Below, one piece after another: positions 1,874-57,334 of a DNA stretch of 64,000 nt. The translations under genes were made by a program, and so were the position numbers. A model generated the notes under the pieces. The model was not told the origin of the DNA and did not search any database. It was given only the letters and a program-made list of their open reading frames with translations. Source of the DNA: a virus. Each line of letters starts with the position of its first letter. The first letter of the stretch is position 1. The stretch is from positions 1 to 64,000 of IMG/VR virus record IMGVR_UViG_3300017773_000004. The stretch is one strand, 5' to 3'.

Positions 1874-2026
1874 ATGGCTTACGGGTATGGTAACGGCAAA
1901 AAGAAAAAGAAGAAAAAGAATGGTAAGAAGAAAAAGTCAATGGGTGGATTGACAGCCAAGCAGAAAAAATTGCCGCCTGCTTTAAGAGCAGCAATTCTTA
2001 AAAAGAAGAAGCGAGGCAAAAAATGA
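1874..2026 (+). CDS. Tiny poly-lysine protein (50 aa)
   Basis: A 50-residue frame starting at ATG 1874. It has two uninterrupted lysine runs (K7 and K4) separated by NG, a short middle (SMGGLTAKQKKLPPALRAAIL) and a KKKKRGKK tail. About half the residues are Lys or Arg. The end overlaps the next start as ATGA, the same coupling used along this operon, which supports it as a real gene. Such a peptide should bind DNA or another polyanion. I infer a nucleic-acid-associated role; it is not a known family to me. Confidence 0.55.
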   Translation: MAYGYGNGKKKKKKKNGKKKKSMGGLTAKQKKLPPALRAAILKKKKRGKK

Positions 2027-2118
2027 TTGACGTACTAATTGGTTGCGTTATAGGTTGGGTTGCTCATATTGCATGGACTAAGTGGGGTTCACTCTTAGTA
2101 GACTTAAATGACAAATGA
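2023..2118 (+). CDS. Very small single-pass membrane peptide (31 aa)
   Basis: The 31-codon frame starts at ATG 2023 and is linked by ATGA overlaps at both ends, to the poly-lysine gene before and the arginine-rich gene after. The peptide is MIDVLIGCVIGWVAHIAWTK followed by WGSLLVDLNDK, so residues 3-18 are hydrophobic enough for a short membrane helix. The double overlap is the main support; function unknown. Confidence 0.45.
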   Translation: MIDVLIGCVIGWVAHIAWTKWGSLLVDLNDK

Positions 2119-2303
2119 GACGGCGAAATAGATACTCAACATCAGCCGCTGCTCGACGAAGAGCAAGAAAACTAGGACTTCGCGGTGTGCACTCCCACGG
2201 GAAAGGAAAGAAAAAAATTTATATGCCGGGAAGAACCCATGCAGCGTATGAAAGAGCGCTGAGGAGAAAGCGACGTGGCAGTAAAACGAAGAAAGGCTAT
2301 TAA
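2115..2303 (+). CDS. Small arginine-rich basic protein
   Basis: 62 residues, dominated by Arg and Lys (MRRRNRYSTSAAARRRARKL at the start, ALRRKRRGSKTKKGY at the end). No fold is recognised. The composition resembles protamine-like or ribosomal-type nucleic-acid binders. Coupled by ATGA to the peptide upstream and overlapping the next basic gene by 29 bases. One of five consecutive highly basic small proteins between 1.87 and 3.27 kb. Confidence 0.5.
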   Translation: MRRRNRYSTSAAARRRARKLGLRGVHSHGKGKKKIYMPGRTHAAYERALRRKRRGSKTKKGY

Positions 2304-2589
2304 GAAAAAGAAAGCTGCACCAAAGCGAAAGCGAGCAGCAAAACCTCTTAGCGCAACAACTCAAAAAACTTTAAAAGCAAAGGCAAAAAAGACTCGATTC
2401 ACTTATGGGCAGCTTGCAAAGGTATATCGTAGAGGTCAAGGAGCCTTCCTTTCTTCTGGCTCTAGGGCAGGAGTAGGAATGGCTGGATGGGCAATGGGTC
2501 GTGTAAACTCATTTATTCGAGGAGGGCATTCACAAGACAATGATATTAAGCGTGGAGCCAAGAAGCGTAAGACGGCTAAAAAGAAATGA
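2275..2589 (+). CDS. Basic protein with conserved YRRGQGAFLSSGSR core
   Basis: 104 residues from a GTG start at 2275. The N-terminal 35 residues are lysine-rich (AVKRRKAIKKKKAAPKRKRA). The centre (about 45-85) has a structured core, FTYGQLAKVYRRGQGAFLSS followed by GSRAGVGMAGWAMGRVNSFIRGG, and the tail is basic again. This core resembles a domain of unknown function found in phages and some giant viruses (I think DUF5824, not verified). The basic arms suggest nucleic-acid contact and the small core a specific partner. It could be packaged with the genome or assist head assembly. Function unproven. Confidence 0.55.
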   Translation: MAVKRRKAIKKKKAAPKRKRAAKPLSATTQKTLKAKAKKTRFTYGQLAKVYRRGQGAFLSSGSRAGVGMAGWAMGRVNSFIRGGHSQDNDIKRGAKKRKTAKKK

Positions 2590-2590
2590 T

Positions 2591-2779
2591 ATGGAAGTCA
2601 ATTCTATTGCGGCTACAATACCTGAAAGCTATCAAAAAGATTATAAAGTTCAATCAGTTTCAAACGCACCCGATAATAAATATAAAGTAACTGATACTAT
2701 TTATATGGTCGTTACTTACGACAGGAACGGAAAGCTTGATCAAAGCACTAATGTTCGTTATCTGGATTATATCATATGA
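2591..2779 (+). CDS. Hypothetical small protein
   Basis: 62 residues from ATG 2591, one base after the upstream stop. Unlike its basic neighbours it is near neutral and looks like a small beta-rich domain (YKVTDTIYMVVTYDRNGKLD). Longer in-frame extension to 2540 would overlap the previous gene and has no better ribosome site. The 3' end overlaps the next gene by 4 bases. Function unknown. Confidence 0.5.
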   Translation: MEVNSIAATIPESYQKDYKVQSVSNAPDNKYKVTDTIYMVVTYDRNGKLDQSTNVRYLDYII

Positions 2780-2991
2780 AAAAGAAACGAGGCCCAGCAA
2801 AAGATAAAAAAACTAAAATACCTAAGAAGTATCTTAGCGGTACAAAAGGTAGTAAACGAACAGAGCTTGCAAGTCTCATAAAAAGAATCTCTAAACTTTA
2901 TAAAGAAGGTAAAACTGTACCTCGATCCCTAATTAAACGACGTGTAGAATTAGGCAAGAAGAAAACAAGTGGTCGTAAAAAGAAGAGGTAA
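2776..2991 (+). CDS. Small lysine-rich protein with IPKKYLSG core
   Basis: 71 residues. A basic N-terminus (KKKRGPAKDKKTK) leads into IPKKYLSGTKGSKRTELASL and a short helical stretch with a GK-x-VPRSLIKRR element, then a basic tail. The KKYLSG-x-x-G-x-x-R pattern is one I associate with short phage and large-virus proteins of unknown function. Coupled by ATGA to the previous gene and overlapped by 23 bases by the next one. A nucleic-acid-associated role is inferred from charge alone. Confidence 0.55.
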   Translation: MKKKRGPAKDKKTKIPKKYLSGTKGSKRTELASLIKRISKLYKEGKTVPRSLIKRRVELGKKKTSGRKKKR

Positions 2992-3274
2992 AAAGAAAGA
3001 CTCAAGATTAAAAAGAGCGGGAGTGTCAGGGTATAATAAGCCTAAGCGTACTCCAGGTCATCCGAAAAAGTCACATATTGTTGTGGCAAAAGTAGGAGCT
3101 AAGATCAAAACTATTCGTTTTGGTCAGCAAGGAGCAAAAACTGCAGGGAAGCCAAAAAAAGGGGAAAGCGAGCGCACGAAGAAAAAACGCGCTTCTTTTA
3201 AAGCCCGGCACCGTAAGAATATTGCTCGAGGCAAGATGAGCGCAGCTTACTGGGCCGATAAAGTTAAATGGTAG
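2969..3274 (+). CDS. Basic conserved phage protein (RAGVSGYNKPKRTPGHPKKSH type)
   Basis: 101 residues with a GTG start inside the preceding gene. It carries RAGVSGYNKPKRTPGHPKKS, then VAKVGAKIKTIRFGQQGAKTAGK, and ends FKARHRKNIARGKMSAAYWADKVKW. I recognise this combination from many marine phage genomes as a conserved protein of unknown function (possibly DUF6321, not verified). It is very basic and looks ribosomal-protein-like in composition, with invariant-looking aromatic and glycine positions, so it is probably a folded nucleic-acid binder. It closes the run of basic genes. Confidence 0.65.
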   Translation: MVVKRRGKKKDSRLKRAGVSGYNKPKRTPGHPKKSHIVVAKVGAKIKTIRFGQQGAKTAGKPKKGESERTKKKRASFKARHRKNIARGKMSAAYWADKVKW

Positions 3275-3282
3275 GAGATACT

Positions 3283-3684
3283 ATGAAATATTTTTTAGCT
3301 CTGCTAGCTATTGTTTCAACAAGTGTAGCAGCAGAAACCGTTATCAACTACGATGATGGGTCAACGTACACGCTCAAGGAAGGGCAAGAAATCTATATCA
3401 GTAATACTAATAGTTCGTTGTTTAAAAGACAACTAATGAAAAACAAGGACACGTTTTTTCGTGTACAAAAGCCTTGGACATCTAGAGACTACGTACCAGA
3501 ACCACAAGATCCTTTTCAACCTGGGTCTCATGAATGGTGTAAAGCCTACGTTCCTTGGAGCGAAGGACTTACATTTGACATGATTACATGGCAACGGTAC
3601 TGCGATACTGATAATGATGGAAAATATGGATGTGGAGATACTAATTTCGACTCATCCGAAGAGGGGAGTGTCTGCTCTCCATAG
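3283..3684 (+). CDS. Secreted protein with calcium-loop-like motif
   Basis: 133 residues. ATG 3283 is chosen over ATG 3268 because AGGAG (3273-3277) precedes it and because it gives a clean signal peptide, MKYFLALLAIVSTSVAA, with likely cleavage after VAA. The mature part has a small beta-type start (VINYDDGSTYTLKEGQEIYI), then a Trp/Pro-rich middle. Its C-terminal region has four cysteines and the loop DTDNDGKYGCGD, which spaces acidic residues as in an EF-hand or dockerin calcium site (D-x-D-x-D-G). It is likely exported to the periplasm and disulphide-bonded. Family not recognised. The next gene also has an EF-hand loop, and the two may act together. Confidence 0.65.
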   Translation: MKYFLALLAIVSTSVAAETVINYDDGSTYTLKEGQEIYISNTNSSLFKRQLMKNKDTFFRVQKPWTSRDYVPEPQDPFQPGSHEWCKAYVPWSEGLTFDMITWQRYCDTDNDGKYGCGDTNFDSSEEGSVCSP

Positions 3685-3693
3685 AGATATACC

Positions 3694-4029
3694 ATGGCAG
3701 ATGAAGAAGTAGTAACAGCGGATAAAGAAGTTGTTAAAAGAATGGACATCAATGGTGATGGTCATTTGTCCAAAGAAGAATACGAAATGGAACTAGAGTT
3801 TCGACGAAGGGAGCTAGAAGATGCCGATGCAATGCGAGACGCCCAAAGAAACATGGCTTGGTTTGCTTTGCTTGGCATGTTGGTATATCCTTTCGCTGTT
3901 GTTGGTGCTCAAGTTGCTGGATATGAGCATGCCGCTGATGTCCTTGGAGACATGGCCCCGACCTATTTTGTGGCTGTAGCGGGTCTTGTTGCAGCATTCT
4001 TCGGAGCTACTGCTTGGAGTAAAAAGTGA
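3694..4029 (+). CDS. EF-hand protein with two membrane segments; holin candidate
   Basis: 111 residues. Residues 18-29 (DINGDGHLSKEE) are a textbook EF-hand loop with ligands at D18, N20, D22, S26 and E29. A charged helix follows, then two hydrophobic segments (about 52-72, AWFALLGMLVYPFAVVGAQV, and 85-108, APTYFVAVAGLVAAFFGATAW). Small size, two membrane helices and position just before a spanin pair fit a class II holin. The calcium loop is not a standard holin part. The holin role is inference; the EF-hand and membrane segments are seen directly. It overlaps the next gene by 4 bases (GTGA). Confidence 0.65.
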   Translation: MADEEVVTADKEVVKRMDINGDGHLSKEEYEMELEFRRRELEDADAMRDAQRNMAWFALLGMLVYPFAVVGAQVAGYEHAADVLGDMAPTYFVAVAGLVAAFFGATAWSKK

Positions 4030-4583
4030 TTCTTGATCTAATGGTAACATTCTGGCAGCCAGTAGTTGTGGCTGCCATTATTTTAATAGCTTTTGTTATT
4101 AACATATTTGATGGGCAAGGGGAAGACCGTATTGGTTTCGAGTATGTAGAGATGCCCATGTTAAAACCTATAAAAATTTGCACAGCAGATAAAGGGTTTT
4201 GGAAAGCAATTTGGCTATGGCTTACTGGAACTCGACGCTGGCAGCTAATAGAAGATTGGTATTATTTTCTAGATGGAGAAGAGTATGTTATTGAGAAAGG
4301 CTTTGAGTTTGATGGTGCATCAGTACCTAAGTTTCTTGCAATGTGGCTTTCGCCCGTTGGAGTCTTGCTTATGGGTGGTCTTGTTCACGATTATGGGTAC
4401 AAGTACGCTGAGTTGGTAAAATGTGAAAAAGGCGAAGTGCCTAAAACACAGAAAGAGATGGATATAATTTTTCGAGATATTTGTATAGAACAGAATGGAT
4501 TTAAAGTGTTAAATTACTTAGCTTTCTGGTCTTTACGATTATTTGGATTCGTTGCTTGGAATAGGCATAGGAAAAATGACTAA
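4026..4583 (+). CDS. DUF1353 family protein with N-terminal membrane segment
   Basis: 185 residues from GTG 4026, which has GGAG six bases upstream and overlaps the previous stop; an in-frame ATG at 4041 is the alternative. Residues about 8-28 form a membrane anchor (WQPVVVAAIILIAFVINIF). The remainder carries the DUF1353 signature: EKGFEFDGASVPKFL, a GLVHDYGYKYA segment and an acidic residue further on (KEMDIIFRDIC). The conserved Asp, His-Asp and Asp/Glu pattern looks like a metal site, but the biochemical role of DUF1353 is not established as far as I know. Given its place in a lysis-like neighbourhood with no recognisable endolysin, a cell-wall hydrolase role is possible. Confidence 0.75.
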   Translation: MILDLMVTFWQPVVVAAIILIAFVINIFDGQGEDRIGFEYVEMPMLKPIKICTADKGFWKAIWLWLTGTRRWQLIEDWYYFLDGEEYVIEKGFEFDGASVPKFLAMWLSPVGVLLMGGLVHDYGYKYAELVKCEKGEVPKTQKEMDIIFRDICIEQNGFKVLNYLAFWSLRLFGFVAWNRHRKND

Positions 4584-4875
4584 GATTGAACAAAAACAAG
4601 AAGAAGAATTAGTAACTGTTGGCATCTGGCCAAAAATTAAACACTGGTGGCGTACTCTTATTCGAGAAGAATGGGAGCTAACAATATTCTTTCCCGGAGA
4701 TACACATTTTTTAGAGGATGGCTCAAGAATAGAAAGTGGATCTCCTAAAACTTATCGAGCAAAGCAATTGATAAAGATTAGTACAACTCATATTATTTTT
4801 GTAGATTTGCTTGGCGTAAAACATGAAATTAAAGTTGTAGCTCCTGTAGGATATGACTTAAGGAAGATATACTAA
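4576..4875 (+). CDS. Hypothetical protein
   Basis: 99 residues from ATG 4576, overlapping the DUF1353 gene by 8 bases and the next gene by one. No family recognised. The N-terminus is charged and tryptophan-containing (WPKIKHWWRTLIREEWELTI). The rest looks like a small beta-barrel-type domain (FFPGDTHFLEDGSRIESGSP, then IKISTTHIIFVDLLGVKHEI). There is no signal peptide. A cytoplasmic or membrane-peripheral protein of the lysis cassette is the simplest reading. Confidence 0.55.
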   Translation: MTKIEQKQEEELVTVGIWPKIKHWWRTLIREEWELTIFFPGDTHFLEDGSRIESGSPKTYRAKQLIKISTTHIIFVDLLGVKHEIKVVAPVGYDLRKIY

Positions 4876-5297
4876 TGTTAGGACTAATAAAAGCCATGCC
4901 CCTTATACTAGTTGTAGCCGGAGGTGCATACGCATACCATACTACAACTGTAAGTAAAGCAGAAGCAACAATCGCACAGCTTGAAGCAAATAATGTAATC
5001 TTAAAAGAAAATACATCAAAGCTAGAAACAGCCCTGGAAACAGAAACCGCTTCAAGAGAACAAGCAGAAAATAATTTAAAAGTACAACTAGAAGCCGTTG
5101 GAAAACTTACTGAAGCAAATACTACAATGCAAGCAGAAATGGATGACTACTTATCTATTTTCAAGAGGCATGACCTTACTAAGTTAGCACGAGTAAAGCC
5201 CGGGCTTATCGAGCCTCGAATCAACAACGGCACGAAAAAAGTGTTTGAACAGATAGAAAAAGACAGTGAAGAGGTGGAAAATGCGGACAGCAACTAG
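4875..5297 (+). CDS. Inner-membrane spanin (i-spanin, Rz-like)
   Basis: 140 residues. Residues 5-21 (IKAMPLILVVAGGAYAY) form an uncleaved signal anchor, followed by a long periplasmic coiled coil (about 27-105) and a conserved C-terminal block, KRHDLTKLARVKPGLIEPRI, then NNGTKKVFEQIE. An N-terminal anchor plus periplasmic coiled coil is the i-spanin layout. Spanins fuse inner and outer membranes in the last step of lysis of Gram-negative hosts. The following lipoprotein gene starts inside its 3' end (17-base overlap), the classic overlapping Rz/Rz1 arrangement, which supports both calls. Confidence 0.75.
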   Translation: MLGLIKAMPLILVVAGGAYAYHTTTVSKAEATIAQLEANNVILKENTSKLETALETETASREQAENNLKVQLEAVGKLTEANTTMQAEMDDYLSIFKRHDLTKLARVKPGLIEPRINNGTKKVFEQIEKDSEEVENADSN

Positions 5298-5652
5298 TTT
5301 TTTAATTATAGTATTTTTATCTGGTTGTTCTTTTATGAAAAGTGACCCTTTGCCAACCCCGGAGCCAGTTATAAAAACTGTAACTGAATATAAAACACTG
5401 GAGATCTATCAGCCTCAACTCCCTAAAAAAATAGATTTGCAAGATGTAGAATTTTTTGTAGTGACAGAAAAAAATCTTGAAGAACAGATTGCAAAAATCT
5501 CAAAAATGCAGGGCGGAACATTTGTTATATTTGGAATGACGCCCCAAGACTATGAAAATATGGCGTTTAACTTACAAGAACTTCGTAGGTATATACGCCA
5601 ACAAAAAGAAATAATTATCTACTATCGAGATGCAACAAAAGTAGAGCAGTAA
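5281..5652 (+). CDS. Outer-membrane lipoprotein spanin (o-spanin, Rz1-like)
   Basis: 123 residues from ATG 5281. The N-terminus MRTATSFLIIVFLSGC contains a lipobox (LSGC, Cys 16) for signal peptidase II, so the mature protein should be an outer-membrane lipoprotein. A proline-rich linker (DPLPTPEP) follows. The C-terminal domain ends with DYENMAFNLQELRRYIRQQK and IIIYYRD, a pattern I associate with marine-phage spanins. It is longer than lambda Rz1, but the lipobox and the overlap with the i-spanin gene argue for the o-spanin role. It implies a Gram-negative host. Confidence 0.75.
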   Translation: MRTATSFLIIVFLSGCSFMKSDPLPTPEPVIKTVTEYKTLEIYQPQLPKKIDLQDVEFFVVTEKNLEEQIAKISKMQGGTFVIFGMTPQDYENMAFNLQELRRYIRQQKEIIIYYRDATKVEQ

Positions 5653-8591: not shown

Positions 8592-8923
8592 TGGCATCCA
8601 GAAATAGAATGCGACGTCAAGTTACTGCTAAATTAGTCCCCCAATTTAGAGATTGGGAACTACCACGTGACATTGACTACAAAAGTTACTGTGGTATTGT
8701 TGATAGGCCTGTTCTTCCAATAGAGATTCAAAAATCTTATTATAATTGGAAAACAGCAGTACTCTCTGTTGTACAGGCTGCTCCAGAAATTTTTAAGAAA
8801 AAGCCGGCTCCGACACCTAAAGCAGCACCTAAAGCAGCACCTAAAGCTGCACCTAAAGCTGATCCTTTGGAAAAACTGAGCCAAGCTGCACCTAAAGCAG
8901 AAGTAAAGAGTAAAGATAAATGA
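8591..8923 (+). CDS. Small head-module protein with Ala-Pro-Lys repeat tail
   Basis: 110 residues, unrecognised. Residues 1-68 look folded, with a basic N-terminus (ASRNRMRRQVTAKL) and an aromatic middle (KSYCGIVDRPVLPIEIQKSYYNW). From about residue 70 it turns into a low-complexity, positively charged tail with the unit P-K-A-A repeated several times, encoded by a 12-bp tandem repeat around 8816-8860. Its place between portal and the protease/capsid fusion, with 1-base and 4-base overlaps, suggests a head-assembly part. A disordered basic tail could contact DNA or the scaffold domain. Function is inferred only from position. Confidence 0.6.
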   Translation: MASRNRMRRQVTAKLVPQFRDWELPRDIDYKSYCGIVDRPVLPIEIQKSYYNWKTAVLSVVQAAPEIFKKKPAPTPKAAPKAAPKAAPKADPLEKLSQAAPKAEVKSKDK

Positions 8924-10929
8924 ATAAGATTTTTAACCTAACTTCTACGTTCAAAGCTCTCGAGGATGATGACGGATGCGTTACCATTACTGGAATGGCT
9001 AGTACAAAAGACTTTGATCGGGCAGGAGATACAATTGTACCCGAAGCCTGGACAAAAGGCGGACTAAGTAATTTTGAGAAAAATCCAATTATTTTGTTCA
9101 ATCATGATTATAACAAACCCATTGGCCGAGCCACTGGGTTAAAAGTTACAGAAAACGGACTAGAAATGAAAGCAAAAATTTCAAAATCAGCTCCTGATTC
9201 TGTTGCTCAACTTGTTAAAGAAGGTATCCTTGGAGCGTTTTCTGTCGGTTTCAAAGTCAAGGATGCTGATTACCTTGAAGAAACCGACGGATTAAAAATA
9301 AAGGATGCTGAGTTGTTTGAGGTATCAGTGGTATCGGTACCTTGTAATCAAGCAGCTACATTCTCTCTGGCGAAGTCTTTCGATTCTGAGCAGGATTATG
9401 AGGACTTCAAGAAAACTTTTAAAAGCGAGGAAGATTCCTCTTCAATGGAGAACGAAATGTCGGAAGAAACTAAAACTCCCGAAATCGACCTAGATGCTTT
9501 TGCTAAGAAGGTAGCGGAAGAGACTGCTGCTAAGATTGCAATTCGTCAGGCCGAAGAAAAAGCCGCAGCTGAGCAAGCTGTAGTTCAAGAACAACAAGAA
9601 ATGGCTAAAGCCGCTGAAGCTAAAGCTCAGCAGGAAGAAGAAGTACAGGCAGCAATCAAAGTCGGTGTTGAATCCGGCGCTGATCGCCTCATGTCTGATA
9701 TGGAAGCCAAGATGCAAGAGAAGGATGCTGATCTGAATAAGATTGTAGCAGAACACGCCGAAGTCCTTAAGGAGAAGCAGTCAGAGCTTGACGCAATGCG
9801 CGAGTCTAAGCGTGTATTCTCTGATCGTGATTCAGGAAATGTGGAAGCTTATGCAAAAGACCTCATGTATGCTCATATGCTGGGTGTTTATACGCAAAAA
9901 GGTTTTGACACTAACTATGCTCGAAATGTCTTCCAAAAAGCAGGTATTAGCTACCCCACGGGTGCTATTACAGGCGCTACGGATAACTTGCTTTCCTTGA
10001 CTGTTTCAACTCAGATCGAGAAAGAAGTACAGTTTCAGTACAAAGTAGCTCAACTTTTCCGTGAGATTCAAATGAACTCTCAATCTATGGTTCTTCCCCT
10101 GCAAAAAGATACTAGCACTGCCGTTTTCCACACTGGCGGTGAGAGTGAGCTGGGTGTAGGCGGTACTGCTAACTCAGGCGCTGGTACAGGTCTTTCTGCT
10201 GCCGGTGGCACTGCAGGTACATATGCTGTTACACAATCAGTAATGCAAGCACATCGATTGATTTCAACCACTTTCATGGACAATCACATTGACGAAGAAG
10301 TTCTTGTAAATCTTCTTCCTATGTTGACTGAAGGTGTTGCACGTGCTCACGCAAAAGCAGTAGATAAGATGGTCGTACTTGGGGAATCTTCTCCTGCCAT
10401 TACTGGCTTGGAAGGTGCAGCTCAAGCTTCTAACTATGGTGAGCTTGACCTTGACGGCGCTACTCTTGGTGCCACAGGTAACGACATTGACGCGGCTAGC
10501 CTGACTTCAGGTCTGCTTCTTGGCGCTCGACGTTCAATGGGTAAGTATGGTCTCGACCCTGCAGACGTAGTATATATCGTAGGCATGAACCGTTACTACG
10601 ATCTGATTGCAGATGCAGGGTTTGCAGACATCACTGATGTTGGTTCAAATATTGCAACCAAGATCACTGGTAGCATTGGTGCTGTATACGGCTCGCCCGT
10701 AGTTCTTACAGACCATGTAGAAGCAGAATCTGCTGGTAACAGTGTTGCATATGCTGTGAATGTTGCTAACTATGTGATTCCTCGACTCCGCGGTGTAACC
10801 GTAGAGCAAGACTATGAGATTGCTCGACAGCGTCAGCTGATCGTTGCTACTCAGTCACTTGGTTTCCACGAGATGTTCGCTGCCTCGGGCACTGATCAGC
10901 CTTGTGTTAAAGTAGTATTCCAGGCTTAA
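8920..10929 (+). CDS. Prohead protease / scaffold / major capsid protein fusion
   Basis: 669 residues in one uninterrupted frame. Residues about 15-150 are an HK97 prohead serine protease: FNHDY with H62, GAFSVGF with S108 and an acidic segment ELFEVSVVSVP. Residues about 160-300 are Glu/Ala/Lys-rich and predicted coiled coil, like the capsid delta (scaffold) domain. Residues about 305-669 match an HK97-fold major capsid protein (ISYPTGAITGATDNLLSLTV, the middle VLPLQKDTSTAVFHTGG, the end QRQLIVATQSLGFHEMFA). In many phages these are separate genes. Here the protease must cut itself out of every subunit, so one protease per capsid monomer is made. The capsid part uses codons more uniformly than its neighbours, as expected for a highly expressed gene. 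A strong terminator follows. Confidence 0.93.
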   Translation: MNKIFNLTSTFKALEDDDGCVTITGMASTKDFDRAGDTIVPEAWTKGGLSNFEKNPIILFNHDYNKPIGRATGLKVTENGLEMKAKISKSAPDSVAQLVKEGILGAFSVGFKVKDADYLEETDGLKIKDAELFEVSVVSVPCNQAATFSLAKSFDSEQDYEDFKKTFKSEEDSSSMENEMSEETKTPEIDLDAFAKKVAEETAAKIAIRQAEEKAAAEQAVVQEQQEMAKAAEAKAQQEEEVQAAIKVGVESGADRLMSDMEAKMQEKDADLNKIVAEHAEVLKEKQSELDAMRESKRVFSDRDSGNVEAYAKDLMYAHMLGVYTQKGFDTNYARNVFQKAGISYPTGAITGATDNLLSLTVSTQIEKEVQFQYKVAQLFREIQMNSQSMVLPLQKDTSTAVFHTGGESELGVGGTANSGAGTGLSAAGGTAGTYAVTQSVMQAHRLISTTFMDNHIDEEVLVNLLPMLTEGVARAHAKAVDKMVVLGESSPAITGLEGAAQASNYGELDLDGATLGATGNDIDAASLTSGLLLGARRSMGKYGLDPADVVYIVGMNRYYDLIADAGFADITDVGSNIATKITGSIGAVYGSPVVLTDHVEAESAGNSVAYAVNVANYVIPRLRGVTVEQDYEIARQRQLIVATQSLGFHEMFAASGTDQPCVKVVFQA

Positions 10930-42747: not shown

Positions 42748-44001
42748 ATGTATGCTAAATTAGTATTCCCCGGCGACACCAAAACAGGGGAGCAGGTTAG
42801 GGACATTGTAAGGCTAATTACAAGCTCTACATCAAGTACTGCAAGCCTTTCAGGACTTGAGTTTATTACAACCGCACAATCTACAGTATCGGGCGGAAAT
42901 AGCGGATGGAGTTTACACTCTAGTTCGCCTTCTATTCCAAGTTCGGGAACAGCTGTAAGTGCAGCAGACTCAAACTTTACACTAGAAGCTCCGTGTGTGA
43001 CGAGTGGAAAGACAAAGTACTGCAGTATTCATGTAAATGGAAGCTGGACTCATGCGGCTGCAACTCATACAGGGGATGATTTTGCATTTACACTGGCAAG
43101 TGTTGTAGATCCTGGTGCTGCTACCGAATTAATCAGTAATGGCTATAGTAGTACGAATTCTGCTTATGGCGAAAACTATGGAATCTGCGGAAATACAGAG
43201 CATTCAGATCAAGGAATTCACATCTTTGCAGATAACCGAAGAATTATTATTCATGGAAAAGATGGAAAAAACCATACTGTAACATTAATTAATGGAGAAT
43301 TTGCTGAAACCGATACCACAACTCGATATACTCTTGTTCCTCAAGCTCAAATGTGTTTAAGTAGTATGTATCATATTTCAGACACAAGAAATGTTAGTTA
43401 TCGAGGAGATACTTATACTCCTTGGGACAGCTTTAGCTATACAGTTCCTTTTATTAGCTTTTTAGAGTCAATGTACTCTTATCAAAGTGGTTGGACTGGA
43501 AAAATAAGATTTACAGGGTGGCATCAATATAATGATAGAGCTACTTATGGTGGAAAATGTCGTTATCGTAGCCGTATTGACGATGGAACTCAATATGGAG
43601 ATTCAACTTTAGAGTCCTCTCTTGGCTACGGAAGAGCACATATGGGGTATGAAATGCTTGATTGGCCTCAAATTTATATGTTTGGGCCAAATCAGTATAA
43701 CCAAGGATGGAATGATAACTCTAATTATGATAGTAGATTCGGAAGAGCTGCCTCAGGTGCTGTAGAGTATGATTCAAGTGGAAATGCAGGACTTGCTTTG
43801 TACAAAATGTGGTGGTCATCCCCTTCTTGCTGGAATTCAGATAAACAAGTTTTTTCTGATCTTTGTAATATTTGGAGATGTGCAGGCGGTCTAGGATCAG
43901 ACGGCGACACTGTAACTATTGGTAGTAATACTTATGTTTATTTACAGCAGAATCCTACAACTCCTGATACTCTCGGCGGATTTTTAATTAAAAGGACTTA
44001 A
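42748..44001 (+). CDS. Putative adhesin / fibre-tip protein
   Basis: 417 residues with a strong ribosome site. The N-terminal ~55 residues (YAKLVFPGDTKTGEQVRDIV, then RLITSSTSS) are unlike the other fibres and may be a separate docking module. The rest is rich in Tyr, Trp, Gly, Ser and Asn with several Cys and a WHQYNDRATYGGKCRYRSRI segment, a composition typical of exposed receptor-binding heads. No known fold is recognised. It follows the long fibre and precedes the three-repeat mini-protein. Confidence 0.55.
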   Translation: MYAKLVFPGDTKTGEQVRDIVRLITSSTSSTASLSGLEFITTAQSTVSGGNSGWSLHSSSPSIPSSGTAVSAADSNFTLEAPCVTSGKTKYCSIHVNGSWTHAAATHTGDDFAFTLASVVDPGAATELISNGYSSTNSAYGENYGICGNTEHSDQGIHIFADNRRIIIHGKDGKNHTVTLINGEFAETDTTTRYTLVPQAQMCLSSMYHISDTRNVSYRGDTYTPWDSFSYTVPFISFLESMYSYQSGWTGKIRFTGWHQYNDRATYGGKCRYRSRIDDGTQYGDSTLESSLGYGRAHMGYEMLDWPQIYMFGPNQYNQGWNDNSNYDSRFGRAASGAVEYDSSGNAGLALYKMWWSSPSCWNSDKQVFSDLCNIWRCAGGLGSDGDTVTIGSNTYVYLQQNPTTPDTLGGFLIKRT

Positions 44002-44003
44002 TT

Positions 44004-44327
44004 ATGGCTGCTTTGCAAATTACTTATGGAGGCTCTTCCTATAATATTACTCGACTAGATGTGCAAGATGTTCCTACGCCTTCTCGGGTTCTATTACAGG
44101 GAGGGCAAAATTTGTTTACAAACAATACTACACGACTAGATGTTCAAGATACAGTAGCTCCCACTAGAACTTTTGCGCAAAATGCACAAAAATTATTTGA
44201 AAACAATACTTCACGATTAGATATTCAAGAACATATAAGCCCTAATCGTGTGTTTATTCAAGGAGGGGTTGCGAGTCCTAATGCACAGACAACAGGGGCT
44301 CCAGCATCAAAAGAAAGCTGGGAGTAA
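44004..44327 (+). CDS. Small three-repeat protein (27-residue repeats)
   Basis: 107 residues. A unit containing T-(R)-RLDVQD-x-x-x-P-(S/T)-R-x-(L/F) and ending NLF-x-NN is repeated three times, with RLDV at residues 17 and 44 and RLDI at 71. The period is exactly 27 residues. Between these are Q-G-G-Q-N or Q-N-A-Q-K turns. The final 20 residues are non-repetitive (ASPNAQTTGAPASKESWE). Such regular, short repeats suggest a small beta-solenoid or one strand per repeat added to a trimer. Family unknown. Confidence 0.6.
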   Translation: MAALQITYGGSSYNITRLDVQDVPTPSRVLLQGGQNLFTNNTTRLDVQDTVAPTRTFAQNAQKLFENNTSRLDIQEHISPNRVFIQGGVASPNAQTTGAPASKESWE

Positions 44328-49034: not shown

Positions 49035-49051
49035 GGAGTAAAGAATGGCAA
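49022..49051 (+). repeat. 30-bp direct repeat, copy 2 (fibre junction)
   Basis: Exact copy of 47437-47466, covering the end of fibre 4, its stop, a ribosome site and the start of fibre 5. Homologous exchange between the copies would remove 1585 bp containing the whole of fibre 4 and leave intact flanking genes. Confidence 0.92.
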
Positions 49052-50382
49052 TCAATTTTCCAAATAGCCCATCAAATGGGGATACACATACAGCAGCAGG
49101 CCAAACTTTTACCTATGATGGCACTGTATGGAATCCTCAATCAGGTACTCCTGTATCTACTGGCACAAGTGCGCCTTCTAGCCCCTTTCCTGGCGATCTT
49201 TGGTTTGATACGTCTTCGGGGACTCTTTACTTTTACTATGCTGATGGTTCTTCGAATCAGTGGGTTGGTGTAACTGGTCCTACAGGTGCAAATGGAACTA
49301 ATGGTGCTGATGGTGCTGATGCAACTCCAACAAGTTATACCGCACAAGGAAATCTTCCAACCTCTGGAAATACTGTAGGAACACTTGCTTGGCTTACAAG
49401 CACAAATCAACTTGCGGTAGCACAATCTGCACAGGATTGGAGTATATTTACCAGAGATGCTACTACAGCTTTTACTGCAACTGGAGGTACAATTACAACT
49501 TATACTGGTGATGGTACTAATGGAACAAATGGTACTAGCTATAAAGTGCATACTTTTACTTCTTCTGGAAACTTTGTAACAACTGGATCAAAAAGTTATG
49601 ATTATATTGTAGTCGCAGGTGGAGGATCAGGAGGCCCAAGACACTCTGGAGGTGGCGGTGCCGGGGGATATATCGCACAAACAGGAGTAACGATCGCAGC
49701 AGGAACCCATGCAATTGTAATTGGAGCAGGTGGAGCAGGTATCTCATCAGGAACAGGAACAAGCGGAAATAATGGTAGTAATACAACTTTTAATAGCCAT
49801 ACCGCGATAGGAGGCGGTGGAGGTGGATACTCTAGTTCTGCAGCAGGTAGCGGAGGTTCCGGGGGCGGAGGATCTAGTTGGAATGCATATACTGGGGGTG
49901 CTGGTACATCAGGACAAGGATATGCAGGTCGAGATGGACATTGGACATCTAGTGGAGATCACAGAGTTTCTGGAGGCGGCGGCGGTGCTGGAGGACAAGG
50001 ACCCGCACCTACACACAGCCCTCAGCAAGCGGGAGATGGTGGTGTAGGAGTACAAAACTATATAAATGGAACAGGCCATTACTGGGCTGGTGGAGGCGGT
50101 GGGGGTACGTGGAATTCTGGTGGAAGTCGAGGAGGAAATGGGGGTAACGGTGGAGGCGGCGGTGGAACTCATACGGGTACCGGTACTTTAACTGGAGGAA
50201 CTGGCGGCTCTGGTTTAAATGCTGGAGGCGCTGGAGGAACAGGAACGACTAACCTGCCAGGAGCAGGCGGGCAAAATACCGGAGGTGGCTCAGGAGGGGC
50301 AGGGCAAGACGTTCATGCAAGCCATGTTGGTGGTTCTCAAAGCGGAGGCTCTGGCATTGTAATTATAAGGTATGAGGCATAA
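49045..50382 (+). CDS. Glycine-rich fibre with shared N-terminus (fibre 5)
   Basis: 445 residues. The signature is AINFPNSPSNGDTHTAAGQT then FTYDGTVWNP, followed by one SPFPGDLWFDTS module, a collagen-like GPTGANGTNGADGAD run and a small linker domain (about 95-170, LPTSGNTVGTLAWLTSTNQL). The glycine-rich head (about 190-445) ends VGGSQSGGSGIVIIRYEA. It lacks the cadherin-like module of fibres 3, 4 and 8. Glycine-rich C-termini of this type may fold as packed polyglycine-II helices with exposed loops that bind receptors; that is family-level inference. Confidence 0.76.
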   Translation: MAINFPNSPSNGDTHTAAGQTFTYDGTVWNPQSGTPVSTGTSAPSSPFPGDLWFDTSSGTLYFYYADGSSNQWVGVTGPTGANGTNGADGADATPTSYTAQGNLPTSGNTVGTLAWLTSTNQLAVAQSAQDWSIFTRDATTAFTATGGTITTYTGDGTNGTNGTSYKVHTFTSSGNFVTTGSKSYDYIVVAGGGSGGPRHSGGGGAGGYIAQTGVTIAAGTHAIVIGAGGAGISSGTGTSGNNGSNTTFNSHTAIGGGGGGYSSSAAGSGGSGGGGSSWNAYTGGAGTSGQGYAGRDGHWTSSGDHRVSGGGGGAGGQGPAPTHSPQQAGDGGVGVQNYINGTGHYWAGGGGGGTWNSGGSRGGNGGNGGGGGGTHTGTGTLTGGTGGSGLNAGGAGGTGTTNLPGAGGQNTGGGSGGAGQDVHASHVGGSQSGGSGIVIIRYEA

Positions 50383-50384
50383 AA

Positions 50385-50696
50385 ATGGCACACTACGCAA
50401 AAGTAAAAAATGGAATAGTAGAAAATGTAATTGTAGCAGAAGCAAAGTTTTTTGAAACTTTTGTTGATGATTCTCCAGGTGAGTGGATTCAAACATCCTA
50501 TAATACACAGGGAGGAGTACATTATGACCCTACAACTGGAGAGCCTAGCGAAGACCAAAGCAAGGCTCTTCGAAAAAATTACGCGACCCCGGGTGGAAAC
50601 TACAACGAAGAGGCGGATGCGTTTTATCATCCCCAGCCCGGAGCAGACTGGACACTGAATACTACTACGTATTTGTGGGAAGCACCAGAGGAGTAA
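50385..50696 (+). CDS. Conserved small fibre-associated protein
   Basis: 103 residues. AHYAKVKNGIVENVIVAEAK at the start, QTSYNTQGGVHYDP in the middle and DAFYHPQPGADWTLN then LWEAPEE at the end form a compact domain I recognise from tail regions of many marine phages, often as a separate gene or as the end of a fibre. Function is not established; fibre assembly or a small virion component are plausible. It sits between fibre 5 and the LamG fibres. Confidence 0.68.
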   Translation: MAHYAKVKNGIVENVIVAEAKFFETFVDDSPGEWIQTSYNTQGGVHYDPTTGEPSEDQSKALRKNYATPGGNYNEEADAFYHPQPGADWTLNTTTYLWEAPEE

Positions 50697-55996: not shown

Positions 55997-57334
55997 ATGG
56001 CAACTAACTTTCCAGATAGTCCGTCCAACGGCGCCACACATACGTTTGGAGGGACTACTTATACTTACAATTCTACAAAAGGTGTGTGGACAGCGCCTTC
56101 AGGAGGCAGCTTTACAGGGCTTTCTGATACTCCTTCTAGTCTTAGCGGACAAGGAGGAAAAACATTAAAAGTAAACTCTGCCGGAAATGCCGTCGAGTTT
56201 GCTAGTGTAGCTGCAGGGGACGGACAATCTCCGATTGTCTATACTGAACCTTCTGCAACTCATGATTTAAACAGTGATGGCAGTACTAGCACAGTGCAAA
56301 TGCAGGCAGTAGACCCAGAAGGAACTGCTATAACTTATGCGATAGCATATGCGAATGCCACGAATGCACGTCCAAATCAACTTGCAGCAGATACCGCTAT
56401 TAATCAAAGCACTGGTACTTTTACCTTTGATCCTTCTACAACTAGTGGACATGCAGGCAGTTTTAAAGCAAGACTAAGTGCCTCAGATGGCATTTCAAGT
56501 GCTAGTCGTTTTGTAAACTTTAATCTTAGCTTCAATCCAGATATTACATATTTAATTGTAGCAGGCGGTGGTGGTGGAGGTACACAGTCCGGTGGTGGTG
56601 GAGGTGCTGGAGGACTTCTTACTGGAACTAGTACTCTTGCTATCGGAACAACGTACACAGTTACAGTTGGAGCAGGAGGTAATGGCTCTGCAACAGGTCC
56701 AGGAGCTGCACAAGATGGTGGAAATAGTGTGCTCTCTGGTAGTGGATTTACTACTCTTACTGCGATCGGTGGTGGTAAAGGAGGTATCTATAATGGTGGT
56801 TCAGGAGGCAACGGAGGTTCCGGTGGCGGGGGCGCTGTAAACAACGGTGCGGCAGGCACAGGAACATCAGGTCAAGGAAATGCAGGTGCCTCGGGCGGAG
56901 TAGATAATGGTAGTGCTACTGACTTCGGAGGAGGCGGTGGAGGTGCTGGTGAAGCCGGAAACACTGATGGGCCCGGACATGGTGGCGATGGTTTACAGTC
57001 AAGTATAACAGGAACGGCTACTTACTATGCTGGTGGTGGTGCTGGTGCTCACCACCCTGCAAGTCAGTCTCCTGCTAGTGGAGGCCAAGGTGGTGGTGGT
57101 GCTGGAGTAAACTCATCCACGAATAGTGGTAACGGCTATCCTGGTACCGCAAATACTGGAGGCGGTGGTGGTACTGGCGCAGAGCACAATAATACTGGAG
57201 GCGCAGGAGGTTCAGGAGTAGTAATTATTAGAACTACTTCAACAGCTGCTTCAAGTACTGGATCTCCCACTCTAACTACCGACGGATCTTTTAATGTATA
57301 TAAATTTACTGGGTCTGGTAGTATAACATTCTAA
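55997..57334 (+). CDS. Glycine-rich fibre with shared N-terminus (fibre 8)
   Basis: 445 residues. The signature is ATNFPDSPSNGATHTFGGTT then YTYNSTKGVW. A short spacer with FTGLSDTPSSLSGQGGKTLK leads to a cadherin-like module (about 80-170) almost identical to that of fibre 4 (HDLNSDGSTSTVQMQAVDPE). The glycine-rich head (about 185-445) ends NVYKFTGSGSITF. It is the last gene of the rightward block and is followed at once by the bidirectional terminator. No collagen-like stalk is seen, unlike fibres 3, 4, 5 and 7. Confidence 0.78.
   Translation: MATNFPDSPSNGATHTFGGTTYTYNSTKGVWTAPSGGSFTGLSDTPSSLSGQGGKTLKVNSAGNAVEFASVAAGDGQSPIVYTEPSATHDLNSDGSTSTVQMQAVDPEGTAITYAIAYANATNARPNQLAADTAINQSTGTFTFDPSTTSGHAGSFKARLSASDGISSASRFVNFNLSFNPDITYLIVAGGGGGGTQSGGGGGAGGLLTGTSTLAIGTTYTVTVGAGGNGSATGPGAAQDGGNSVLSGSGFTTLTAIGGGKGGIYNGGSGGNGGSGGGGAVNNGAAGTGTSGQGNAGASGGVDNGSATDFGGGGGGAGEAGNTDGPGHGGDGLQSSITGTATYYAGGGAGAHHPASQSPASGGQGGGGAGVNSSTNSGNGYPGTANTGGGGGTGAEHNNTGGAGGSGVVIIRTTSTAASSTGSPTLTTDGSFNVYKFTGSGSITF

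Follow-up and report, generated by a model that had tools for sequence, protein, structure and literature searches.

A conserved EF-hand in a family of two-helix membrane proteins frequently found near lysis genes of marine phages

The window analysed here is a stretch of 64,000 nucleotides taken from the start of a virus record of 69,055 bases (IMG/VR IMGVR_UViG_3300017773_000004). Head, tail-tube, baseplate-tube and distal-tail genes in it match T5-type families, so the virus is assigned to the T5-like siphoviruses. Close to the start of the window lie two neighbouring genes, here termed A and B, that are separated by nine bases and encode a secreted protein and a membrane protein, respectively (Table 1). 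An earlier reading made from the sequence alone (the sequence-only reading) had assigned a signal peptide and a D-x-D-x-D-G loop to the first protein, and a complete EF-hand loop followed by two membrane helices to the second. The open reading frame of A, with its VAA-ending leader and the loop DTDNDGKYGCGD, and the open reading frame and predicted helices of B agree with these assignments. The pair had also been placed just before DUF1353 and spanin genes, and matches to Pfam DUF1353, phrog_739 and phrog_812 are indeed found downstream.

Table 1. Positions of genes A and B, their features and the genes downstream of them in the window
Feature	Coordinates	Strand	Basis
Gene A, 133-aa secreted protein with dockerin-like/EF-hand-like DxDxDG loop	3283..3684	+	ORF
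Signal peptide of A, residues 1-17, ending in VAA	3283..3333	+	Read by eye
Calcium-type loop of A, DTDNDGKYGCGD, residues 108-119	3604..3639	+	Sequence
Gene B, 111-aa EF-hand two-helix membrane protein	3694..4029	+	ORF, profiles, model
EF-hand loop of B, DINGDGHLSKEE, D18-E29 (residues 18-29)	3745..3780	+	Sequence, homologue alignment
TM1 of B, ~residues 54-73, continuous with helix leaving EF loop	3853..3912	+	Model and charge
TM2 of B, ~residues 89-107	3958..4014	+	Model and charge
DUF1353 protein with N-terminal membrane helix, likelier start ATG at 4041	4026..4583	+	Pfam, E 8.5e-11
Small protein, no assigned function	4579..4875	+	ORF, profile searches
Rz-like i-spanin	4875..5297	+	phrog_739, E 4.8e-11
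Rz1-like o-spanin lipoprotein, LSGC by eye	5281..5652	+	phrog_812, E 1.1e-13

Gene A begins at an ATG (position 3283) that is preceded by GGAG. Its product is modelled with a beta-rich N-terminal half, at low confidence, and with the calcium-type loop after a helix in the C-terminal region, where pLDDT is ~90 over residues 101-130. Profile searches with A, including Pfam, PHROGs and NCBIfam, gave no named family at a significant E-value, and a Foldseek search of the PDB with the A model, including its low-confidence N-terminal half, gave no match at E ≤ 0.001. A dockerin-like loop of the form DxNxDGxx...D is present in 65 of 67 distinct matches to A. One of the two loop-less matches (L166, from Mycobacterium phage Colt) is a false match to an HNH protein, and is retained as one row among the 67.

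Lysis-type genes are common near A. They occur within 2.5 kb in 25 of the 31 distinct A loci having at least 1.5 kb on either side, and in 19 of the 25 A loci that lack B; M15 and GH24 endolysins and GTA_holin_3TM are among the neighbours. Where a locus contains both A and B, the two stand side by side in 26 of 27 cases, all but one of them from close relatives of the window. Most loci carry A without B or B without A, and co-occurrence is nearly confined to the T5-like group of the window. Given this association with lysis genes, A probably serves the lysis programme as a periplasmic accessory that, it appears, joined B in one phage group. On a T5-like contig (L022 and L136) A resides in a segment away from B, which indicates that the position of A shifts between related phages.

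The canonical EF-hand loop of B fits the PROSITE EF-hand pattern, written as a regular expression. Its conservation was assessed in 183 distinct homologues that represent six or more gene neighbourhoods. Loop position 1 is D in all 178 readable homologues, positions 3 and 5 are always N or D (181/181 each), and G at position 6 and E at position 12 are each found in 180 of 181, whereas positions 2, 7, 10 and 11 are free to vary. Mean entropy is correspondingly 0.47 bits at ligand positions versus 1.99 bits at non-ligand positions of the loop, and every readable homologue but one holds a metal ligand at positions 1, 3, 5 and 12. Seven sequences failed a relaxed loop pattern, of which the single true loss is an E-to-K change at position 12; by eye, the other six comprise four cuts at contig ends, one sequence with an X and one whose loop lies past the scanned stretch. 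Three residues beyond the loop, D49, G61 and P66, are shared by all homologues (183/183), and Y91 is found in 181/181.

Such a loop arises in 0.034% of shuffled B sequences, and of the 3580 other distinct proteins that were called in the fetched loci, 6 have its pattern. In a search with a profile built from 31 B proteins, solved EF-hand proteins are found with a best E-value of 8e-7. With B as a single sequence, the best Pfam EF-hand E-value is 4.2e-4, and its score of 20.1 bits lies under the curated cut-off of 25.9, so standard annotation would miss the domain. Searches of Pfam, PHROGs and NCBIfam likewise returned weak EF-hand matches and no family to which B itself belongs, and a BFVD fold search returned one strong match, to an unnamed protein. 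Judged from the homologue alignment and these comparisons, the EF-hand of B is real and under strong constraint, and is not a chance occurrence.

There is one loop per chain in the B sequences read, with no second EF-hand to pair with it, and in many homologues the entering helix is replaced by HPAD. An EF-hand that stands alone may be a weak calcium binder, and the ligand could be Mg2+; the EF-hand signature is the sole reason for putting calcium first as the putative ligand.

In the structure model of B, a short helix (residues 11-17) is followed by the loop, a long helix (27-74) that continues through TM1, a helix at 78-86 and TM2 at 88-110. Structure prediction had been proposed by the sequence-only reading as a check, and its yield is mixed: pLDDT is ~90 in the membrane part, where helix 27-74 spans TM1, but only 61-64 round the loop. 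K and R residues average 5.3 ahead of TM1, 0.5 in the turn between TM1 and TM2, and 2.1 in the tail (65 sequences). By this rule-based prediction B is likely to have an N-in/C-in topology, and the EF-hand would thus be cytoplasmic. Class II holins also have two helices with both termini inside, and B, as a small protein, shares this form by prediction. No match was found between B and the holin families of Pfam, PHROGs and NCBIfam.

B might be a lysis protein whose EF-hand is a constitutive structural Mg2+ or Ca2+ site that does no calcium sensing. Having one EF-hand per chain is compatible with such a site, and near-invariance of the loop suits a structural role as well as a sensing one. The predicted continuity of the loop with TM1 would better suit coupling, which argues weakly against a purely structural site, and we regard this explanation as unlikely.

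Loci for neighbourhood analysis were fetched by similarity to A and B of the window and to the B proteins of CRP-345, CRP-810 and CRP-207, keeping the best 80 per search, and genes in them were called with a simple script. The counts that follow apply to the loci so fetched and are no census. Among 81 dereplicated B loci, which have flanks of 2.5 kb or more in both directions and from which identical B C-termini were removed, 55 carry a lysis-type gene within 2.5 kb, always on the same strand (92 of 127 before dereplication). By simple arithmetic on three reference genomes, ~10% of genome length lies that near to lysis genes. Related loci are not independent; at 70% identity they form 13 clusters, of which 12 include some member with a lysis-type gene and 11 a majority of such members. 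These counts include DUF1353, Lipase_3 and phrog_2524, which are presumed lysis genes, and one locus (L336) whose Rz1 match overlaps B and may be spurious. Another holin-like gene is nearby in 23 of the 81 loci, which speaks against B merely filling the place of a missing holin, and in 32 there are lysis-type genes with no other recognised holin.

The gene orders in which B takes part are diverse. In the window type, the order is A-B-DUF1353-g4579-Rz-Rz1-TerL. Elsewhere, B is preceded by a GH19 endolysin, Rz/Rz1 and a small membrane protein, and followed by DnaJ, deformylase and Clp ATPase genes. A Lipase_3 gene (in L031-L034 and L069-L070) or a GH24 lysozyme gene may be directly ahead of B. 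Other orders are B-lipoprotein (spanin-like)-M15; B-GTA_holin_3TM followed by GH19, M15 or GH108; and B-phrog_2524 followed by GH19 or M15. In most of the loci L026-L061, which represent one phage group, genes for DnaJ, peptide deformylase (recognised by eye) and a Clp-type ATPase are directly downstream of B.

In 26 of the 81 loci there is no lysis-type gene within 2.5 kb of B, and these loci belong mainly to the CRP-207 group of roseophages, where 1 of 27 loci has a lysis-type match, and to T4-like phages, where B is located between baseplate and tape-measure genes. In HTVC008M and Melnitz, for example, B has the baseplate-hub catalyst gene on one side and the tape-measure position on the other, and other T4-like loci are alike. 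Because of these positions, the main rival explanation gives B, as a membrane-bound protein, a role in morphogenesis or in the virion, such as that of a tail protein, baseplate hub or DNA-ejection factor, with a structural metal site, and holds that proximity to lysis genes merely reflects a compact late region. The frequent presence of a basic late protein near B (cluster 1, with 90 members within four genes) is in keeping with this explanation, as are the CRP-207-type loci with no lysis genes nearby. However, B is shared by a T5-like siphovirus and HMO-2011-type roseophages, whose late-gene content is unrelated, and among its recognised neighbours lysis genes are the most frequent. Moreover, the upstream genes of CRP-207-type loci (c8 and c2) occur elsewhere together with B, a holin and GH19, which ties the CRP-207 group to a lysis arrangement. 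On balance, a virion or morphogenesis role seems somewhat unlikely. The gene adjoining B in CRP-207, gp73, is annotated as a putative lysozyme; it has no Pfam or PHROGs support and resembles a membrane coiled-coil protein, and it was left uncounted.

Host takeover and the exclusion of superinfecting phages are frequent jobs of small phage membrane proteins, and this frequency is the argument for assigning B to such a task, apart from lysis and assembly. In the gene orders observed, however, B is among late genes, and the assignment is highly improbable.

The sequence-only reading had proposed that calcium might gate or time lysis. What stands of this proposal is a constrained EF-hand, a two-helix membrane protein and a link to lysis genes that recurs across unrelated gene orders; in T4-like and CRP-207-type loci, B is not next to recognised lysis genes. 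Together, the neighbourhood and the calcium-type loop suggest that calcium may help control lysis.

EF-hands had also been said to be rare in phage membrane proteins, which is misleading, as in one collection (viral_contigs) the B family by itself counts at least 596 relatives. The family spans pelagiphages, methylophages, roseophages and T5-like phages. Isolates that carry it are HTVC008M, four Melnitz phages, CRP-345, CRP-810 and CRP-207, and in all of these B is annotated as a hypothetical protein. CRP-207 and CRP-345 belong to an HMO-2011-type group, and the available text of the paper concerned mentions lysis genes only in general (PMC9038755). An origin of B as a host gene was rejected: of 44 candidates in genome_contigs, two were matches, and both lie on TerL-bearing, phage-like contigs of one MAG. 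The family is unnamed and occurs in many marine phages, usually beside lysis-type genes.

We tentatively prefer a holin-like or holin-modulating role for B, in which the binding of a divalent cation at the EF-hand is coupled to TM1; this is a real possibility that stops short of being probable. B would be a small inner-membrane protein of the lysis programme, a role that we infer, either acting as a holin-like protein itself or adjusting the action of the holin as its partner. Its single EF-hand, predicted to be cytoplasmic, would sit at the start of one long helix running into TM1. We infer that metal binding could order the start of this helix and thereby alter the pairing of monomers or the seating of TM1 in the membrane. 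Until leakage of the membrane sets in, the cytoplasm contains little calcium. The site might therefore be empty or loaded with magnesium early in infection, and calcium might occupy it once seawater ions enter, so that the collapse becomes more abrupt. If B is calcium-responsive, a simple ion signal would be linked to the timing of lysis in seawater. A stronger version, in which B is the founding member of a calcium-responsive holin-like family and a leak-filled cytoplasmic EF-hand fused to TM1 drives all-at-once collapse in several unrelated marine phage groups, Melnitz among them, is quite unlikely.

Some components of this proposal have known counterparts, as described in the available parts of the papers cited. 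The mycobacteriophage protein LysF1a is a two-helix, N-in/C-in holin-like protein (PMC13056207). Like class II holins and LysF1a, B proteins are ~90-110 amino acids long, have two helices and a predicted N-in/C-in topology, lie near lysis-type genes in many though not all loci and may be accompanied by a second holin-like protein; unlike them, B, which is known from sequence alone, has a 50-amino-acid cytoplasmic part with an EF-hand and matches no holin family. The endolysins EndoT5 (PMC10487532) and LysGH15 (PMC4022735) are soluble and calcium-activated. They resemble B in that calcium acts on a phage lysis component via a calcium-binding loop, putatively so in B, but they are peptidoglycan hydrolases whereas B is a membrane protein without an enzymatic domain. 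EfhP of Pseudomonas aeruginosa is a bacterial EF-hand protein thought to be a calcium sensor (PMC11559002); it is predicted to be periplasmic, has more than one EF-hand and is not from a phage, whereas the loop of B is single and predicted to be cytoplasmic. Calcium control of soluble endolysins and two-helix holin-like proteins are thus already known. Literature searches of titles and abstract openings found no description of an EF-hand holin, of a conserved EF-hand on a two-helix holin-like protein, or of the B family.

In Melnitz, B corresponds to gp108, a two-helix protein that the available text of the genome paper does not discuss (PMC9004378). According to the same text, there is no lysin-like gene besides gp67, no conventional holin is named, and a curli pore is proposed as a pinholin-like device. 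B (gp108) is an alternative candidate for this pinholin-type role.

The DUF1353 protein downstream of B carries a His-Asp motif (HDYG and MDx[IL]FRD) that is present in 19 of 19 full-length homologues. TtaP, another DUF1353 protein, has phospholipase A2 activity according to the available part of its description (PMC11525133). The window protein shares with TtaP the domain and the conserved H-D motif, but it has an extra N-terminal membrane helix, its activity is putative, and it is a neighbour of B rather than B itself. A phmmer comparison of the window protein with solved structures found no solved PLA2. By analogy with TtaP, and given the Lipase_3 genes directly ahead of B in some loci, a lipid-cleaving step beside B is possible.

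Searches for PF13539, PF00959, PF08291 and PF01510 found no endolysin in the record of the window, which is a fragment. Close relatives (L352, L353 and L355) encode lysis enzymes of the M15 and GH24 types in a different region, and in one relative the endolysin candidates are ~17.5 kb away on the opposite strand. Near the GH24 gene of L353 and L355 is a 111-amino-acid two-helix protein, different from B, that is another holin candidate. This arrangement counts against the preferred reading of B.

Several other regions of the window have distinctive features. Positions 1874-3274, ahead of A, encode a run of small, very Lys/Arg-rich proteins that are possibly DNA-condensing or packaged; the family of the last of these (2969-3274; cluster 1) is found again, only a few genes away from B, in several groups of phages. 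At 1435-1641 is a gene for a 68-amino-acid protein with a coiled coil and a C-terminal helix, with weak matches to a hemolysin PHROG (E 0.032) and, below cut-off, to a GTA head-formation model (E 1.9e-4). Genes resembling it stand near A in L124, L125 and L139. The ORF at 8920-10929 (669 amino acids) contains a prohead protease (Peptidase_S78) that is probably fused to the major capsid protein. A large block at 33540-57334 consists of long presumed tail-fibre ORFs. Three of these are of similar size (42748-44001, 49045-50382 and 55997-57334), two of them have small ORFs beside them (44004-44327 and 50385-50696), and they may represent repeated modules.
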